DNA of 37,283 nt from a virus. A program made the position numbers and the translations under genes. The stretch is taken from IMG/VR virus record IMGVR_UViG_3300036857_000105, positions 1 to 37,283 of that record; one strand, given 5' to 3'. Of the stretch, positions 2,194 through 30,997 are shown piece by piece. Positions within the stretch are counted from its first letter, which is position 1; every line of letters starts with the position of its first letter. The notes below the pieces were generated by a model. The model was not told where the DNA came from and made no database searches. It saw only the letters and a program-made list of their open reading frames with translations.

Positions 2194-2577
2194 ACGGCAA
2201 CGCTGTCGCTTGTCCCGCAGGTCGTCGGGATCGCCCTCTACGCCGGCGACGGCGCAGCGCTCCGTCTGACGGTCCGCGACACGGCGAGCCCGCCGCAGCC
2301 GCTCGACCTGAGCGGCGGCGTCGCCGCGCAGATCCGCCAGCACCGCGACGACGACGACCCGCTGCAGGTGTTCGGCGTCGACCTCACCGACGGCGCCAGC
2401 GGCGTCGTGGTGCTGCATCTGACCGGCGAACAGACCGCCGCGCTCGTCAACGGCGGCGGCGCCTTCAAGGGCGTCTACGACGTGGAGTGGACGCCGGCAG
2501 GCAGCGAGCCGGTCACGCTCGTCCAGGGCGACGTCACCTGCGAGCTCGACGTCACTCGCCTCGAGGGAACGCCGTGA
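2194..2577 (+). CDS. Beta-rich virion assembly protein with an apparent ACG start
   Basis: The open frame codes for about 127 residues of convincing protein: a two-strand start ([16 protein letters not shown]), a [20 protein letters not shown] segment and beta strands to the end. This resembles small BppU-N-like/immunoglobulin-like proteins that accompany phage fibres. There is no ATG, GTG or TTG in frame before codon 59. A perfect GGAGGA (2181-2186) lies 7 bases before ACG GCA ACG, which reads like ATG GCA ACG with one T-to-C change. I therefore place the start at ACG 2194; CTG 2203 is an alternative. It overlaps the next gene by GTGA. The role is probably to support or attach the fibre encoded next. 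Confidence 0.7.
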
Positions 2578-4667
2578 GCGGACCCGAGGCGACCGTCGAT
2601 GTCGAGCTGATCGGCGACGTCGACGTCGACGTCGACCTCGACGGGCCCGACCTCGTCACCGACCTCGCCGAGGAGCTCACGCTCACGATCGTCGCCTCGA
2701 ACGCCGGGCCGCCCGGGCCGCCCGGGCCGGAAGGCGACCCGGGGCCTCCGGGGCCCGCCGGGCCTGCCGGGGCGCAGGGTGCGCAAGGCCCGCCGGGGCC
2801 GTCGGGCGCCGACTCGACCGTGCCCGGGCCGCCGGGGCCGCCCGGAGCTCAGGGCGAGCAGGGCGACGCCGGACCCGCCGGGCCGACTGGGCCGAGCGGC
2901 CCGCCCGGCTCGGAGGGCGCGCAGGGCCCGGCCGGGATCAAGGGCGACACCGGGCCGGAAGGACCCCCAGGGCCGCCCGGCTCTCAAGGTGTGCAGGGCG
3001 TCAAGGGCGACACCGGGGCCGCCGGGCCGGAAGGCCCGCAGGGCGATCCGGGCCCGCAGGGCCCGCAGGGCGACGTCGGCCCGGCAGGCCCGCAGGGCCC
3101 GCAGGGAATCGAGGGGCCCGAGGGGCCCGCCGGGGCGGGCGCCGTCCAGTGGGCCTACATGTATTCGGCGACGACGACCGAGCCGCCGACCGGCTCGCAA
3201 CTGCGCTTCGACGCCGGGCCGGCAGCGGCGACGAAGGTGTGGGTCCGCGACCTCGACGTCGACGGCGTCGACAACCACTCGCTCTTCCTGGCAGTCAAGC
3301 CCGGCTCGCTCCTCTACGTGCAGGACCAGGACGACTCGAGCCGCTTCGCCCGCTTCGACGTCGTCGGCGACCCGATCGGAAAGTCGGGCTACGTCGAGTT
3401 CCCCGTCTCATACGTGAGCTCGGGCGGAACGATCCCCGAGCAGCGGGTCGAGCTCGTGATCGCCGCCGCCGGGATCGCCGGGCCGCAGGGGCCGCAGGGT
3501 CCGCCCGGTCCCGCAGGCCCGCAGGGCCCGGACGGTCCGCAGGGCGCCGCCGGAACGCCCGGAGCTCAGGGGCCGCCCGGGGCGACCGGCTCAGCCGGGC
3601 CGAAGGGCGACAAGGGTGACACCGGCGCGCAGGGCGCGCCCGGGGCGACCGGCTCGCAGGGGCCGCAGGGCCCGACCGGCTCGCAAGGCCCGGCAGGCGC
3701 ACCCGGCGACGAATGGATCTACGGCACCGGCGACCCGACTCCTTCGGCCGACCGGGTGGGGACGCTCTACCTCGACGGCGCGACAGGCAAGGTGTGGGAG
3801 CAGCAGGCGTCCGGGTGGGTGTTCACCGGGCTCGTGCTGCGAGGCCCGCAGGGGCCGCAGGGTCCGGCGGGAACCGCCGTAGTCGACGTGCAGGCGTTCA
3901 CCGCGTCGGGCACGTGGACGAAGCCTGCCGGTGTCACGACGGTATGGGTTGTCTGTATCGGCGGCGGCGGCGGTGGCGGCGGCGGCAGACTCGGCAGCGG
4001 CTCGACGGTGCGTGGTGGCGGCGGCGGCGGTGGTGGCGGCGGCTACACCGGGCGGATGCTTAGGGCATCGACGCTCGCCGCGACCGAGGCCGCCACTGTC
4101 GGCGGCGGCGGTGCTGGCGGCACCGCGAACGGCGGCGACGGGGGGCCGGGCCTCGCATCGTCGTTCGGCGCATGGCTCAAGGCGAGCGGCGGCGGTGGCG
4201 GCTCGGGCAGCGCGGGCAGCCCGGGTCCGCCCGGCGCTGGCGGTATCGGTGACGTCTACGGTGGCGGCGGCGGCGGTGGCACGGCAACCGGCGGGAGCTC
4301 TGGGGTCGCAGGTACAAGCTCGTCCACCGCCGGGGCTGGCGGCGGCGGCGGCGGCGGCGTCGGGACGAACAACGTCAGCGCCTCGGGCGGCGGCGGCGGA
4401 TCGTCGGGAATCGACCTACGGGCAGGCGGCGTCGGCGGTATCGGCAATGTCGGCGGCGGCGGCGCTTCGGCGGCAGCAGGCGACGCGACGGGCGGCGCAG
4501 GCGGCGGCGGCGGCGGCGGCGTCCACAGCGGCAGCGGGCTAACCCTGGACGGCGGCAACGGCGGTAACTACGGCGGCGGCGGCGGCGGCGGCGGCGGCAC
4601 GGCAGGAAGCCCCGCAGGCAGAGGCGGCGGCGGCGGCGGCGGAATAGTCGTGGTGGTGTCGTGGTGA
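2574..4667 (+). CDS. Collagen-like and glycine-rich fibre protein
   Basis: A 697-residue structural protein starting at GTG 2574 (4-bp overlap). Residues 1-43 are acidic (alternating Asp-Val). Collagen-type Gly-X-Y repeats span about 45-187. A globular beta domain ([16 protein letters not shown] onward) spans about 190-300. A second collagen tract spans about 301-380, then a short fibre module ([15 protein letters not shown]), a few more Gly-X-Y units, and the motif [18 protein letters not shown]. From about 462 to the end it is glycine-rich, mostly runs of GGC codons. This is a trimeric fibre by family knowledge. It lies between capsid and neck genes rather than after the tape measure, so a head fibre or decoration is as likely as a tail fibre. 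The GGC runs should be prone to slippage. Confidence 0.88.
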
Positions 4668-4674
4668 GAGCCGG

Positions 4675-5193
4675 ATGAACGCCGACCGCGTCTACCGCCG
4701 GGCTCGGCTGCGCGGCCCGACACCGCCAGGAGCACGCGACGACGAGCAGACCTGGGGCCAGATCGTCACGCCCGACGAGCTCGAGCGGCTGCTCGGACTC
4801 GACCCGGAGAACGCCGCCCGCGCCGCCGAGCTCGTCCAGATCACGATCGAGGCCTACATCTGGCCGAACGTGATCGAGGACCCAGTGCCGCCGCCGGTGC
4901 ACGCGGTCGGCCTCGCGCTCGCCGCCCGCTTCTCCGGCGCCACCCTGACGAAGGCCGGCAGCGTCGTAGGCGAGTCGATCGGCGCCTACAGCTACCGGCT
5001 CGCAGGCCCGCTGACCTTCGACGACGTCGTCCTGCTTCTCGGCGAGCTGGCCGACGCGCTCTACCCGTGGGCGCCACCGCGCCACGACAACGCCTACACC
5101 CTCGAGGGCTGGACGACGATCGCCTGGCCGGCCGAGTGGTGGCAGCGCGACCTGGACAACCTCGACCTCGAGAGGAGAACACCGTGGCAGTAG
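4675..5193 (+). CDS. Head-to-tail connector (adaptor)
   Basis: A 172-residue helical protein. After a basic N-terminus it has TPDELERLLGLDPENAARAAELVQ, then a helix with WPNVIEDPVPPPVHAVGLALAARF, a hydrophobic middle and an aromatic C-terminus (AWPAEWWQRDLDNLDLERR). This pattern matches gp6/gp15-type adaptors that form a 12-mer ring under the portal and start the neck. Starting at ATG 4675 and heading a row of short neck genes, it is in the usual place. Assignment rests on pattern and order, not on a single diagnostic motif. Confidence 0.75.
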   Translation: MNADRVYRRARLRGPTPPGARDDEQTWGQIVTPDELERLLGLDPENAARAAELVQITIEAYIWPNVIEDPVPPPVHAVGLALAARFSGATLTKAGSVVGESIGAYSYRLAGPLTFDDVVLLLGELADALYPWAPPRHDNAYTLEGWTTIAWPAEWWQRDLDNLDLERRTPWQ

Positions 5194-5318
5194 ACGAGAC
5201 GACCGGCAAGGCCGACGACGACCGGCAGGACGACCAGCAGGACGACCAGCAGCAGGACGGCCAGCAGGACGACGTCGACGACGACCAGCAGGACGACGAC
5301 ACGACCGGAGGCGAGTGA
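5184..5318 (+). CDS. Small Asp/Gln-rich protein
   Basis: A 44-residue, extremely acidic, low-complexity protein (repeats of QQDD and DDDQQ) starting at GTG 5184, 8 bases after AGGAG and overlapping the previous gene by 10 bp. Both ends overlap neighbours in the style of this genome, so it is probably translated. Its composition and CAG/GAC codon repeats closely match the N-terminal tract of the scaffold at 278, suggesting common origin by repeat expansion or copying. No fold or function can be assigned; a disordered assembly factor is possible. Confidence 0.6.
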   Translation: MAVDETTGKADDDRQDDQQDDQQQDGQQDDVDDDQQDDDTTGGE

Positions 5319-5698
5319 GCTCGACGATCGACCACCTGCTCACTATCCCCTGCGAGCTCCTCCAGCGGAGCTACTCGGAGGACGCCGGCGAGGACGGCCA
5401 GCAGGCCGCGACCGAGACGGTGATCGCCGCGACCCGCTGTGAGCTCCAGGGGGCCGGCAGTCGCGAGGACCCGACCGGGGCGATCCAGATCGCGACCTAC
5501 CGGCTCTGGCTCACCGCCGGCACGCCGCTGCGCGGATGGGACGCCGTCCGCCTGACCGACACCGGCGAGATCCTCGAGCTCGAGGGGGACGCCTTCGAGG
5601 CCCGCTCGCCGCTGACCGGCAACGCGCACGTCGAAGCGGTCGTCCGCCGGACCGACTATGGCGAGGGCGAGCTCGCCCTCGAGGCCGCCGATGCCTAG
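5315..5698 (+). CDS. Head-tail connector / stopper-like protein
   Basis: A 127-residue protein from GTG 5315 (GTGA overlap). The sequence is beta-rich: PCELLQRSYSEDAGEDGQQ, then TRCELQGAGSREDPTGAIQIATYRLWL, then a GWDAVRLTDTGEILELEGD strand pair and a C-terminal VEAVVRR strand. This is the pattern of the SPP1 gp16 / head-completion 'stopper' group that plugs the connector after packaging. Position second in the neck cluster supports it. Two cysteines (near 13 and 43) could be structural. Confidence in the exact role is moderate. Confidence 0.7.
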   Translation: MSSTIDHLLTIPCELLQRSYSEDAGEDGQQAATETVIAATRCELQGAGSREDPTGAIQIATYRLWLTAGTPLRGWDAVRLTDTGEILELEGDAFEARSPLTGNAHVEAVVRRTDYGEGELALEAADA

Positions 5699-24062: not shown

Positions 24063-24550
24063 GCGCGCACGTCACTCGAGCCGAGCGGCTGCAGCAGATC
24101 CTCATCGGCAAGGCCCGCGGCCTCACACAGCGCGAGATCGCCGCCGAGCTCGGGATCGGCAGGTCGGCCGTCAACAGCATCATCTGCGACCCCGCCGGCA
24201 CGAAGGCGCGCGCCCGCAAGGACCGCTACCGCGGCGTCTGCGCCGACTGCGGCGGCCCTACCGACGGCTCCAACGGCCGCGACAAGGCGGCGCTCCGCTG
24301 CCGCTGGTGCGCACGCGGCCTCCAGCCGCCGCGCCGCCGGCTCACCCTCCCCGTCCGCCTCTGCGACCTCTCGCTCGACGCGCGCCTCGCCGGCGCCCGC
24401 GAGGCCGCCCGCACCTGGCGCGACCCGAACGACCGCGCCGAGATCCTGCTCGCCGCGCTCACCCCGTCGACCACCGTCTACTGGCTCGCCGAGTCGGCCC
24501 GACCGCTGCTCGAGCAGCTTGCCCACGCGACCGATGAGGTGGCAGCGTGA
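24059..24550 (+). CDS. HTH and zinc-ribbon DNA-binding protein
   Basis: A 163-residue protein, GTG 24059 (GTGA overlap). Residues 20-42 (RGLTQREIAAELGIGRSAVN) are a clear helix-turn-helix of the sigma-region-4/HTH_23 type. A zinc ribbon follows with Cys61-x2-Cys64 and Cys81-x2-Cys84. The C-terminal 70 residues are helical. It directly precedes the putative replication initiator, so it may regulate early genes or help at the origin. Confidence 0.8.
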   Translation: MSAHVTRAERLQQILIGKARGLTQREIAAELGIGRSAVNSIICDPAGTKARARKDRYRGVCADCGGPTDGSNGRDKAALRCRWCARGLQPPRRRLTLPVRLCDLSLDARLAGAREAARTWRDPNDRAEILLAALTPSTTVYWLAESARPLLEQLAHATDEVAA

Positions 24551-25329
24551 CCGCGGGCGGCTGGTGGAAGGCGCCACGCGCGCTCGCCGCGATGCTCGCC
24601 CGGCGAGAGTTGACGTTCAACGCCTACGCACTCCTGCACTACCTCGTCGCCGCCGGCGCCGACCGCGACGACGGAGTCGTCACCTCGCACGGCGCGCTCG
24701 CCGACGTCACCGATCTCAGCACCAAGACGGTCGGCCGGGCGCTGCGCTCGCTGCGCGACGCCGGCCTGATCGACTACGACGACCACGCCCGCGTCGCCAC
24801 TTTCACGGTGCGCACTGGGGACACCCTGAGGACAGCGCTGGGGACTTTCCACAGGGGGTCTGTGTCCCCAGCAACTGAGGACACCGCTGCACCCGTGTCC
24901 CCAGGCAAACCCGCATCAGCACAGGGTTCGCTTGCGGACATGGCTACGGACACCCTCGCGCGCGCGCGCGGGACCAAGATAGAGAAGGACCCCCTTACCC
25001 CCGCGACGAGCGCGGGGGACGCCCGAGACGGCACCGCGACGACGCCCTGCCTGGTCTGCGGTGAGCGCGTCCGTCCCGGCTACCGCTGCCCCGGCTGCGG
25101 CTCGAACCCACGCGCCGCCGGCAGCAGCATCCGCGAGAGCGCCAGGCGCCGGACGACGGCGAGCGACTACGACCGCGCCCTCGCCAAGGTCCGCAACGAG
25201 GCCTGGCAGTACGACCTCGGCGCCTTCCGCGCCGAGCTCGACCGCTTCGACCTCAGCGCCGCCGAGCGCGGCCAGCTCGAGCAGCTCCGCGCCGAGCTCG
25301 TCGACGACGACGAGGCGCTCGCATGGTGA
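24547..25329 (+). CDS. Replication initiator-like winged-helix protein
   Basis: A 260-residue protein, GTG 24547. Residues about 15-85 (ELTFNAYALLHYLVAAG, SHGALADVTDLSTKTVGRAL, RSLRDAGLIDYD) are a winged helix of the phage O/RepA-like replication type. Residues about 90-160 are a low-complexity linker whose DNA carries the iteron cluster. A zinc motif follows (CLVCGERVRPGYRCPGCG: Cys-x2-Cys ... Cys-x2-Cys), then a helical C-terminus. By analogy with lambda O, it would bind iterons inside its own gene and recruit host helicase machinery. No phage helicase or primase is encoded in the window, so it must rely on the host's. Confidence 0.75.
   Translation: MTAGGWWKAPRALAAMLARRELTFNAYALLHYLVAAGADRDDGVVTSHGALADVTDLSTKTVGRALRSLRDAGLIDYDDHARVATFTVRTGDTLRTALGTFHRGSVSPATEDTAAPVSPGKPASAQGSLADMATDTLARARGTKIEKDPLTPATSAGDARDGTATTPCLVCGERVRPGYRCPGCGSNPRAAGSSIRESARRRTTASDYDRALAKVRNEAWQYDLGAFRAELDRFDLSAAERGQLEQLRAELVDDDEALAW
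24816..25018 (+). repeat. Iteron cluster and hairpin: candidate replication origin
   Basis: Eight copies of TGNGGACA or close variants: direct at 24816, 24827, 24839 (ends T), 24876, 24933 and 24945 (TACGGACA); inverted TGTCCCCA at 24863 and 24896. Spacings of 11, 12 and 12 bp put neighbours on one helix face. They are followed by a (CG)7 run (24957-24970), the A/G-rich stretch AAGATAGAGAAGGA, and a perfect 8-bp hairpin CCCCCGCG/CGCGGGGG (24998-25018). All lie in the linker-coding part of the initiator gene. Confidence 0.72.
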
Positions 25330-25690: not shown

Positions 25691-26154
25691 GCACCGGGCG
25701 CTTCGAGGACGGCCGCCGCTTCGTGCGGGTCGAGATCGCCGGCACGCCGGCGCCGCAGGGCTCCAAGACGATCGCGACCGGAGGCGGCCGCACCTGGACA
25801 CGAGAGGACAACCGCGCGACCGAGCCGTGGCGGAACGCCGTCGCGGCGGCCGCGATCGACGCGATGGACGGCGACGAGCTCCTGGCCGGGCCGCTGCTGC
25901 TCGAGGCGACGTTCCGCTTCCCGCGGCCGAAGCACCACTACGGCACCGGCCGCAACGCCGGCAAGGTCAAGGCGAGCGCGCCGACGTGGGTCGCGACCCG
26001 CCCGGACCTCGACAAGCTGGTGCGCGCCGTCGCCGACGCGCTCGCCGGCATCGCCTACCAGGACGACTCGCAGATCGCCGAGCACGAAGCGGTCAAGTGC
26101 TACGGGACGCCCGGGCTCGAGCTGACCCTCTACGAGATCGGAGGACACCGATGA
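25687..26154 (+). CDS. rusA: RusA-like Holliday junction resolvase
   Basis: A 155-residue protein, GTG 25687 (GTGA overlap). 'VRVEIAGTPAPQGSKTIA' is the family's N-terminal strand and loop. The active site is in RPDLDKLVRAVADALAGIAY followed by QDDSQI: Asp107, Asp109, Asp117, Asp126 and Asp127 bind metal, and Lys110 is conserved. It cuts four-way junctions made by annealing and replication, so that DNA can be packaged. It is slightly longer than E. coli RusA (120), with a C-terminal strand (LELTLYEIGG). Confidence 0.92.
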   Translation: MSTGRFEDGRRFVRVEIAGTPAPQGSKTIATGGGRTWTREDNRATEPWRNAVAAAAIDAMDGDELLAGPLLLEATFRFPRPKHHYGTGRNAGKVKASAPTWVATRPDLDKLVRAVADALAGIAYQDDSQIAEHEAVKCYGTPGLELTLYEIGGHR

Positions 26155-27020
26155 GCAAGATCGGATCGCAGGACGGGATCGTCGCGTTCCACAACCGGCA
26201 GCGCGACCTCGACCCCGCCGGCACGCTGCTCGTCAAAGGCAAGGACGGCAGGTGGCCCGACATGAACCAGGCGCTCGCCGGCGTCCCGGTCGATCAGTGG
26301 AAGGCGATCGACAAGCACCAGCGGACCGAGCAGATCCTCAAGGACGACCACGACACCGGCGCCTCGGGCGGCTCCGACTTCGACTACCTCGTCCCGGCGC
26401 AGGCCCGGATCTTCCTGGCGCAGGCGCCGCTCGACTGCCTGAACGCGCCGCCCTGGATGGTGCCCGTCTGCAGCGCCGACCGCGGCTACCGCGACCAGGG
26501 CGAGACGAATTACTACACGCCCGACGTGATCGCGAAGCTGCGCGAGCGCTTCGGCACCGTCGAGGCGTGGTGCGACTGCCGCGTGCCCTCGGGCTTCGTC
26601 GCCGGCGTCGGCACCGGCTACGACGTCGCCTGCCAGATGGTCGACGAGCTCGACCTCGACGGGCCCGCCTGGGGCCAGTGCGAGACGGAGCCCGAGTTCG
26701 ACAACGCCTACAACGGGGGCGCCCGTCGGATGGTCGGCCAGCTCGCCGGCCTCCGCGACGACCAGCGCGACCGGATCGGCGCGGCCGAAGTGCTGCTCGC
26801 CTTCGAGCTCTACCGCAACAAGATGCCCTGGCAGGTGCCCGACTACGGCGACGACGGCGCTGGCGTCGGCGGCACCTGCATCGGCGTCTACGCGAGCGAC
26901 AGCGAGGGCGCGACCTACTACCCGGTCAGCCGCTACAAGGACGAGGGCTACTACACGCCCGGCAGGAGCTCCGTCTACGGCGTCGGGCTGATGGTGCAGG
27001 ACTGGATCGACCTCGCGTGA
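26151..27020 (+). CDS. Protein of unknown function, possibly TIM-barrel hydrolase-like
   Basis: A 289-residue protein, ATG 26151 after GGAGG. Segments such as PPWMVPVCSADRGYRDQGETN, TVEAWCDCRVPSGFVAGVG, DLDGPAWGQCETEPEFDNAY, AAEVLLAFELYRNKMPWQVP and GVYASDSEGATYYP read as alternating strands and helices, each strand ending in acidic or polar residues. This resembles a GH25-like barrel. The first 90 residues are polar and may bind a partner. It is not in the lysis cassette and has no signal peptide. A lysin, a virion-associated wall enzyme or something else are all possible; I do not recognise the family. Confidence 0.75.
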   Translation: MSKIGSQDGIVAFHNRQRDLDPAGTLLVKGKDGRWPDMNQALAGVPVDQWKAIDKHQRTEQILKDDHDTGASGGSDFDYLVPAQARIFLAQAPLDCLNAPPWMVPVCSADRGYRDQGETNYYTPDVIAKLRERFGTVEAWCDCRVPSGFVAGVGTGYDVACQMVDELDLDGPAWGQCETEPEFDNAYNGGARRMVGQLAGLRDDQRDRIGAAEVLLAFELYRNKMPWQVPDYGDDGAGVGGTCIGVYASDSEGATYYPVSRYKDEGYYTPGRSSVYGVGLMVQDWIDLA

Positions 27021-29286: not shown

Positions 29287-29651
29287 CGACCTGGGACGAA
29301 GCCGCCGAGGAGCTCGCCGGCACGCTCCGCGACGCGATCGACGCGCTCGAGGACGGCGGCGTCAGCGCCGACGACGACACGCCCGAGGCGCGGCTGCTCG
29401 TCGGTCTGCGCCACGCGATCGAGCAGTGGGACGCGAGCGCGCCGCACTGCCCGGACGGCCACCGCATGACTCTCCGCTCCCGGTTCAGGCTCGACCATGA
29501 GCCGGGCGACAGCCCGCGCGACACGGAGCTGCTGGCCCGGTTCGAGGCGGGCGGGCTCGAGCTCGGCGCCGACGCCGTGCTGTGGTACTGCGCCCGCTGC
29601 AACTACGCGCACGTCGACTTCGCCTACCCCGACGACGAGGCCAAGCCGTGA
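29283..29651 (+). CDS. Hypothetical protein with zinc-ribbon-like ends
   Basis: A 122-residue acidic protein, ATG 29283 (ATGA overlap). After a helical N-terminus (EAAEELAGTLRDAIDALEDG) it has HCPDGHRMTLRSRFRLDHEP and near the end VLWYCARCNYAHVDFAYPDD; the Cys/His near 60 and the CxxC near 110 could form one zinc site. It may be a small DNA-binding accessory to the methyltransferase next door, but that is only positional. Confidence 0.7.
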   Translation: MTTWDEAAEELAGTLRDAIDALEDGGVSADDDTPEARLLVGLRHAIEQWDASAPHCPDGHRMTLRSRFRLDHEPGDSPRDTELLARFEAGGLELGADAVLWYCARCNYAHVDFAYPDDEAKP

Positions 29652-30997
29652 CACGGATCCACGACTCGCTCGCCGAGCTCGCCGTGCCGATCAAGAGCCT
29701 GCGACCGTACAAGGGCAACCCGCGCGTCGGCGACATCGCCACGATCCGCGAGTCGCTCGAGACGAACGGCCAGTACCGCCCGATCGTCGTCCGCCGAGCG
29801 ACGAACGAGGTGCTCGCCGGCAACCACACCTGGCAGGCGGCGCGCGAGCTCGGCTGGCAGGAGATCGCCGCGACCTTCGTCGACGTCGACGCCGAGCAGG
29901 CGCGCAGGATCGTGCTGGTCGACAACCGGGCGAACGACCGCGCCGGCTACGACGACGAGGCGCTCGCGAAGCTGCTGCAGGCGATCCAGGATCTCGCCGG
30001 CACTGGCTGGACGTCGGGCGAGCTCGACCGGCTGCTCGACAGCCTGGCCCGATCGGGTGAGGACGCCGCCCGCGACACCGAGCCGATGGCGCCGCCGGCG
30101 AAGCCGACCGCGAAGCGCGGCGACCTCTGGCAGCTCGGAGGCCACCGGCTGATCTGCGGCGACTCGACCGACGCCGACGACGTCGCGCGGCTCTTCGGCG
30201 ACGAGCTCGCCGAGATGGTCTGGACCGACCCGCCCTACGGCGTCGACTACCACGACCGCCGCGGCGGCAAGCGCCAGGGCTACTACGGCAAGGGCGGCGT
30301 CGGAGCGACCGCCGGCGCCAGCTTCGCCGGCGACCACCTCGACCCCGAGCTCCTCTACGAGCTCGTCAAGGGCTCGCTCGGGCTCGCGCTCGAGCACACC
30401 CGCAAGGGCGGCGCCGTCTACGTCGCCCACCCCGACGGCCGCGCCCCGGTCTTCCGCCGCGCCGTCGACGACGCCGGATGGGACATCCATCAGACGCTCG
30501 TGTGGGTCAAGCAGGTCTTCGTGCTGACCCGCCAGGACTACCACTGGCAACACGAACCGATCCTCTACGGCTGGCGCCCGGGCGCCGGCCACCGCTGGAA
30601 CGGCAGCATGGGCGAGCCGACGACGATCGACGACGAGGTCGATCCCCGCACGCTCGAGAAGCGCGAGCTGCTCGCGCTGGTGCGGCGGCTCCGCAACGCG
30701 CGGAACACCGACGTCGTGCGCGCCGACCGGCCGATGGTCGCGGAGCTCCACCCGACCTCGAAGCCGGTCGAGCTCGTCGCGCACATGGTCCAGAATTCGA
30801 GCCGCCGCGGCGAGCTCGTCTACGAGCCGTTCGGCGGCTCAGGGACGACGATGATCGCAGCGGACAACCTCGGACGCCGGGCCTACCTCGTTGAGTACGA
30901 GCCGCGCTACTGCGACGTGATCGTCGACCGCTGGCAGCGACACACCGGCGAGGCCGCCGAGCTCGAGAGGAGGCGCAAGGCCCGTGCCGCCGTGTAG
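29648..30997 (+). CDS. ParB-like domain fused to a DNA methyltransferase
   Basis: A 449-residue protein, GTG 29648 (GTGA overlap). Residues 1-110 are a ParB-like nuclease/CTPase-type domain (IKSLRPYKGNPRVGDIATIR, QYRPIVVRRATNEVLAGNHT). The rest is a beta-class N6-adenine or N4-cytosine methyltransferase: motif IV DPPYGVDYH (194-197), then TSKPVELVAHMV and motif I EPFGGSGTTMIA (from 393). It uses SAM to modify phage DNA, likely protecting against host restriction; the ParB part may guide or nick DNA. No partner restriction gene is present. It overlaps the small terminase gene by 14 bp. Confidence 0.92.
   Translation: MTRIHDSLAELAVPIKSLRPYKGNPRVGDIATIRESLETNGQYRPIVVRRATNEVLAGNHTWQAARELGWQEIAATFVDVDAEQARRIVLVDNRANDRAGYDDEALAKLLQAIQDLAGTGWTSGELDRLLDSLARSGEDAARDTEPMAPPAKPTAKRGDLWQLGGHRLICGDSTDADDVARLFGDELAEMVWTDPPYGVDYHDRRGGKRQGYYGKGGVGATAGASFAGDHLDPELLYELVKGSLGLALEHTRKGGAVYVAHPDGRAPVFRRAVDDAGWDIHQTLVWVKQVFVLTRQDYHWQHEPILYGWRPGAGHRWNGSMGEPTTIDDEVDPRTLEKRELLALVRRLRNARNTDVVRADRPMVAELHPTSKPVELVAHMVQNSSRRGELVYEPFGGSGTTMIAADNLGRRAYLVEYEPRYCDVIVDRWQRHTGEAAELERRRKARAAV

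Follow-up and report, generated by a model that had tools for sequence, protein, structure and literature searches.

A probable iteron origin of replication within an O-like initiator gene of an uncultured GC-rich phage

Background

The principle of an origin of replication lying within the initiator gene has long been known from phage lambda, whose iterons are four 18-bp sites with hyphenated dyad symmetry, accompanied by a 39-bp AT-rich tract (PMC6022878). The number of these iterons varies among lambdoid phages, with four in lambda and six in Stx phages (PMC7466680). In phage SPP1, oriL comprises direct repeats located within gene 38, which are bound by gp38, the product of that same gene (PMC6316719). 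The oriL of P1 was postulated to be inside the initiator gene repL, and synonymous changes in an A/T-rich region of it inhibit replication (PMC9948254). For mycobacteriophage RepA systems the origin was suggested to lie inside repA, as in lambda O, or immediately upstream of that gene, and no repeats were identified in the regions examined (PMC7157519).

The DNA analysed here (the window) is the whole of a 37,283-bp IMG/VR virus contig with a GC content of about 72%. An earlier note, made from its sequence alone, had proposed an iteron origin in the linker-coding part of a winged-helix replication gene, with a layout mirroring that of lambda O/ori but with an unrelated iteron.

The initiator gene

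24547-25329, plus strand: putative replication initiator gene, 260 aa (PHROG/Pfam profile matches, AlphaFold model and motif)
Parts of its product: N-terminal winged helix, residues ~9-87; low-confidence linker, ~88-161; C4 zinc-ribbon-like motif, 168-184; helical C-terminus, 193-260

The 260-aa product weakly matches the replication initiation protein family phrog_270 (E=1.8e-6, residues 14-211) and also matches phrog_345, described as "replication initiation O-like" (E=5.7e-4), while its matches to phrog_1032 and phrog_186 agree in function with phrog_270. HTH domains were found just below the Pfam cut-off (HTH_Crp_2, 6.5e-6). The single-sequence AlphaFold model is weak overall (pLDDT 54); it presents a winged-helix-like pattern up to residue 86, falls below a pLDDT of 50 from residue 80 to 161 and ends in a helical C-terminus modelled with confidence, and a CxxC...CxxC motif is found at residues 168-184. 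These profile matches and the low-confidence model point to a winged HTH N-terminus followed by a flexible linker, and the gene probably encodes an O-like initiator. The repeats described below code for residues ~90-135, within the linker predicted to be disordered, which is where the earlier note had placed them.

The iteron array

In order to find clustered words, each 8-mer with one wildcard was scored and weighted by its second-order Markov expectation. In unweighted counts, GC-rich codon repeats drowned out the other words. The top clustered word of the window was TGNGGACA, with a score of 13.8, while the best word of each of 20 third-order simulations scored 3.0-4.9. The runner-up cluster (score 13.5) belongs to a poly-glutamine protein encoded at 278-940, and the next ones are in a collagen-repeat protein (2487-4667), and these lower-ranked clusters are therefore protein repeats. 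The first of these proteins has 220 aa and a poly-glutamine/aspartate start, and belongs to no Pfam family.

24816-24952, no strand assigned: iteron array of eight copies of the CTGRGGACAC type, which would form the initiator-binding half of the origin (cluster score)
24816-24823, plus strand: iteron 1, TGGGGACA, exact word
24827-24834, plus strand: iteron 2, TGAGGACA, exact word, fused with iteron 3 by a 12-bp deletion in a close contig (L007)
24839-24846, plus strand: iteron 3, TGGGGACT, one mismatch
24863-24870, minus strand: iteron 4, TGGGGACA, inverted, exact word
24876-24883, plus strand: iteron 5, TGAGGACA, exact word
24896-24903, minus strand: iteron 6, TGGGGACA, inverted, exact word
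24933-24940, plus strand: iteron 7, TGCGGACA, exact word
24945-24952, plus strand: iteron 8, TACGGACA, one mismatch

The exact word occurs six times in the 37,283 bp, where about two occurrences are expected by chance, and all six fall within 24816-24940. With the one-mismatch copies at 24839 and 24945 the array reaches eight copies, two of them on the minus strand (24863 and 24896), as the earlier note had counted; a ninth, poor copy, TGTGGAAA, is at 24846 on the minus strand. The start-to-start steps are 11, 12, 24, 13, 20, 37 and 12 bp, so that the 11-12 bp spacing claimed for several repeats is indeed present, and alignment of the copies gives the extended repeat unit CTGRGGACAC. The earlier note had also suggested counting the word in the remaining sequence. 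The window holds no exact copy outside the initiator gene, and intergenic iterons of a plasmid-type origin were not found; one-mismatch words are not enriched over the whole window (52 found, 69 expected), which confines the dense occurrence of the word family to the array.

Two codon phases and both strands are represented among the eight copies, which encode TGDT, LRTA, LGTF, VSPA, TEDT, VSPG, LADM and ATDT. A peptide repeat would hold one phase and one strand; the repeat is therefore in the DNA and not in the peptide, which supports the view that DNA function drives the sequence of this linker.

A close relative

The protein search for relatives of the initiator returned one close contig (L007/L026) and none in phages, plasmids or genome contigs, and a RecT-based search of viral contigs gave no loci. 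This contig is 99.6% identical to the window over 3,641 bp, and every difference falls within 24813-24907, in or beside the array. These comprise two SNPs, at 24813 and 24907, neither of which touches a core word, and one deletion:

24830-24841, plus strand: 12 bp missing in-frame in L007/L026, one repeat unit lost (contig alignment)

The deletion joins repeats 2 and 3 into TGAGGACT, and the only close relative found thus retains the array less one copy. Iteron number also varies between relatives among the lambdoid phages (four and six), as it does here between the two contigs (eight and seven).

Elements flanking the array

24957-24970, no strand assigned: (CG)7 alternating run adjoining the array, longest in the window
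24973-24997, plus strand: candidate unwinding stretch, A/G-rich, locally the AT-richest 25 bp of the gene (52% AT); weak, with AT-richer stretches elsewhere in the window
24998-25018, plus strand: perfect 8-bp inverted repeat with a 5-nt loop, at chance level

The three elements reported earlier beside the repeats are all present, with different weight. No run as long as the (CG)7 appeared in any of 10 simulations. The A/G-rich stretch proper covers 24973-24988. The hairpin is real and ordinary, given that the window has 35 such 8-bp hairpins and the simulations have 17-53, and it was dropped as an origin element. No strong AT-rich unwinding element was found in the gene, whose best 50-bp segment reaches 40% AT with AT-richer stretches elsewhere in the contig. 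Of the lambda-type origin anatomy, then, the array and its position hold up, while the unwinding element is poor and the hairpin is at chance level. The GC-skew plot that had been proposed as a check was uninformative on the origin, as the skew does not switch sign at the array.

Comparison with known origins and actinophage initiators

As a positive control the same cluster finder was run on positions 34000-45000 of lambda, where the known origin array ranked first (score 6.7) and the OR operators second. As in the window, the array of lambda is mid-gene, in the linker-coding part of the gene of an HTH initiator, and the relative positions nearly coincide (0.434 in gene O, 0.431 in the window). 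The lambda-like layout therefore stands, whereas the unrelated iteron is no novelty because iteron words differ between phages. Unlike lambda, the window has eight sites of about 10 bp whose orientation is mixed, and its initiator has a zinc-ribbon-like motif following the linker; neither a strong AT-rich tract nor a lambda P-like gene was recognised. It shares with SPP1 oriL the direct repeats inside the initiator's own gene, and with P1 oriL the postulated placement of the origin within the initiator gene. The AT-rich unwinding elements, helicase loader gp39, helicase gp40 and second origin of SPP1 have no recognised counterparts in the window.

We surveyed 20 actinophage initiator loci that had been picked by protein similarity or annotation and not by repeats. 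The strongest repeat cluster of the locus was inside the initiator gene in 11 of them, at 0.40-0.59 of gene length. The chance of this is about 0.085 per locus and the nominal binomial P is 1.4e-7, an optimistic value, as five of the 11 positive loci are Wizardvirus relatives, leaving about seven that are independent. Mid-gene arrays with recurrent steps of 11, 12, 23 and 24 bp are found in the initiator genes of Gordonia phages Wizard, TillyBobJoe and JuJu, Rhodococcus phage Whack and the mycobacterial prophages prophiT49-1 and prophiT36-2a, the last having a weaker GGGGACA array in a RepA-like initiator. Several named actinophages have RecE/RecT upstream and a resolvase downstream of the initiator, a gene neighbourhood that counts in favour of the origin reading. 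The protein of the window has no significant pairwise similarity to the named actinophage initiators.

The cluster words of the survey differ (AACCCTTC-type, ACCCNCCC, TTTCNGAA), and most actinophage initiator arrays use another word, of the AACCCTTC-type, than the window does. Clusters of this type, with steps of 11, 12 and 22-24 bp, were seen in Gordonia and Rhodococcus phages, where they lie in initiator genes, and in Thermobifida phage P1312, where the gene is long and unannotated (L224:9519-9625, L226:5539-5645, L227:5439-5560, L228:5488-5606, L232:5437-5482, L234:4824-4927 and L222:12237-12315). The words also cluster where the proteins have different N-terminal parts. Judging from their sequence, these clusters are probably unannotated origins.

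Among the 20 loci, no clear array was found in the initiator gene of Kukla, VWB, SF3 or GMA1. Arthrobacter phage Kukla has a cluster of the word TNACTTGT before an early HTH gene (L225:3023-3144), probably repressor operators. In Arthrobacter phage StevieBAY the cluster (L235:5614-5738) lies in the gap that directly follows the annotated RepA-like initiator (5007-5543), a gene that may have been called too short. Propionibacterium phage Anatole has a strong GGGNCGCT cluster (L240:1187, score 12.7) that is upstream of RecE and does not fall in the annotated initiator gene.

Clusters in many viral initiator genes had prompted the idea of a universal shared iteron word, TGTCCCCA, which was rejected after comparison with the reversed control word ACCCCTGT. 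Triple clusters were found in 86 viral stretches for TGTCCCCA and in 109 for the control, and among the ORFs covering the clusters phrog_270 was matched by 10 of 113 and 17 of 102, respectively. The mixed-orientation pattern was seen 20 times for TGTCCCCA (several being near-duplicates) and four times for the control. Since the control word recovers initiator genes as often, TGNGGACA is not special; in-gene arrays are a general property of the initiator family, with a variable word.

Alternative explanations

The array could instead be a cluster of operators regulating the replication operon through the initiator or another phage DNA-binding protein, for example the product of the second HTH gene just upstream of the initiator gene. 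Operators also carry repeated half-sites in both orientations, which is how the OR operators came second in the lambda control, and the strong clusters of Kukla and StevieBAY are outside the annotated initiator gene. We nevertheless regard this explanation as unlikely, as the array is mid-gene, about 270 bp into the coding frame and not at a promoter, and such mid-gene arrays recur in related initiators. Another thought is a centromere-like (parS) or packaging site, given that parS arrays are direct repeats and that the window encodes a protein that might recognise them, a ParB_N domain fused to an N6/N4 DNA methyltransferase (29582-30997). Similar ParB_N-methyltransferase proteins are however common in actinophages, no ParA was seen in the scanned proteins, and the array is inside an initiator gene as in other phages, all of which makes a parS role very improbable.

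The other dense clusters of the window are coding repeats, and the array might by that token be the by-product of a low-complexity peptide; with the same word in two codon phases, on both strands and encoding different peptides, this reading is refuted and hardly deserves credit. As for chance, a single word of this length is indeed expected about twice in the window, but the simulations never exceeded 4.9 and the second contig keeps the array save one copy, which reduces its likelihood to practically nothing.

Proposed mechanism

We consider that the locus is a lambda-O-type intragenic iteron origin, an O-like initiator gene carrying its own origin in the linker-coding segment, with a probability of roughly 0.82. 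The array is confined to this gene, is the top cluster of the window, accompanies matches to initiator families and has a layout that recurs in many actinophage initiators, all in agreement with the earlier proposal; from this we infer that it is bound by the initiator and active as an origin. The winged-helix domain would bind the CTGRGGACAC iterons, spaced by about one helical turn, and several initiator monomers would stack into an O-some-like complex. The adjacent DNA would then open, most likely at the locally AT-richer A/G stretch (24973-24997), and the C-terminal domain would bring in the helicase of the host or of the phage. Binding, opening and helicase recruitment are proposed by analogy with lambda O and SPP1 gp38 (PMC7466680, PMC6316719).

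PHROG and Pfam scans of neighbouring genes recognised no helicase or helicase loader, and some of these genes have no family. Among the latter is the gene at 26151-27020, downstream of RusA, encoding a 289-aa protein without Pfam or PHROG family; with such neighbours an unrecognised loader is possible, and this product could be the missing one or something else. A neighbouring helicase loader or helicase goes with the model systems (lambda P, SPP1 gp39/gp40) and is not strictly defining for an intragenic origin. We would also mention, as a doubtful though conceivable variant, that an origin in a genome of about 72% GC dispenses with a classical AT-rich element: the iteron-bound initiator together with the (CG)7 run or the A/G stretch would open the DNA, and the zinc-ribbon domain would recruit the host helicase directly, with no phage loader.

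Conclusions

The array is best read as a further intragenic iteron origin of the kind known from lambda, and a probable origin has thereby been located in an uncultured GC-rich phage. The interest of this is modest and comes chiefly from a simple rule that generalises over many actinophages: where the top cluster of short words falls mid-way along an O-like initiator gene, it marks candidate origins in many actinophages that have no annotated origin in the records examined. This rule gives origins and mini-replicons that can be tested.
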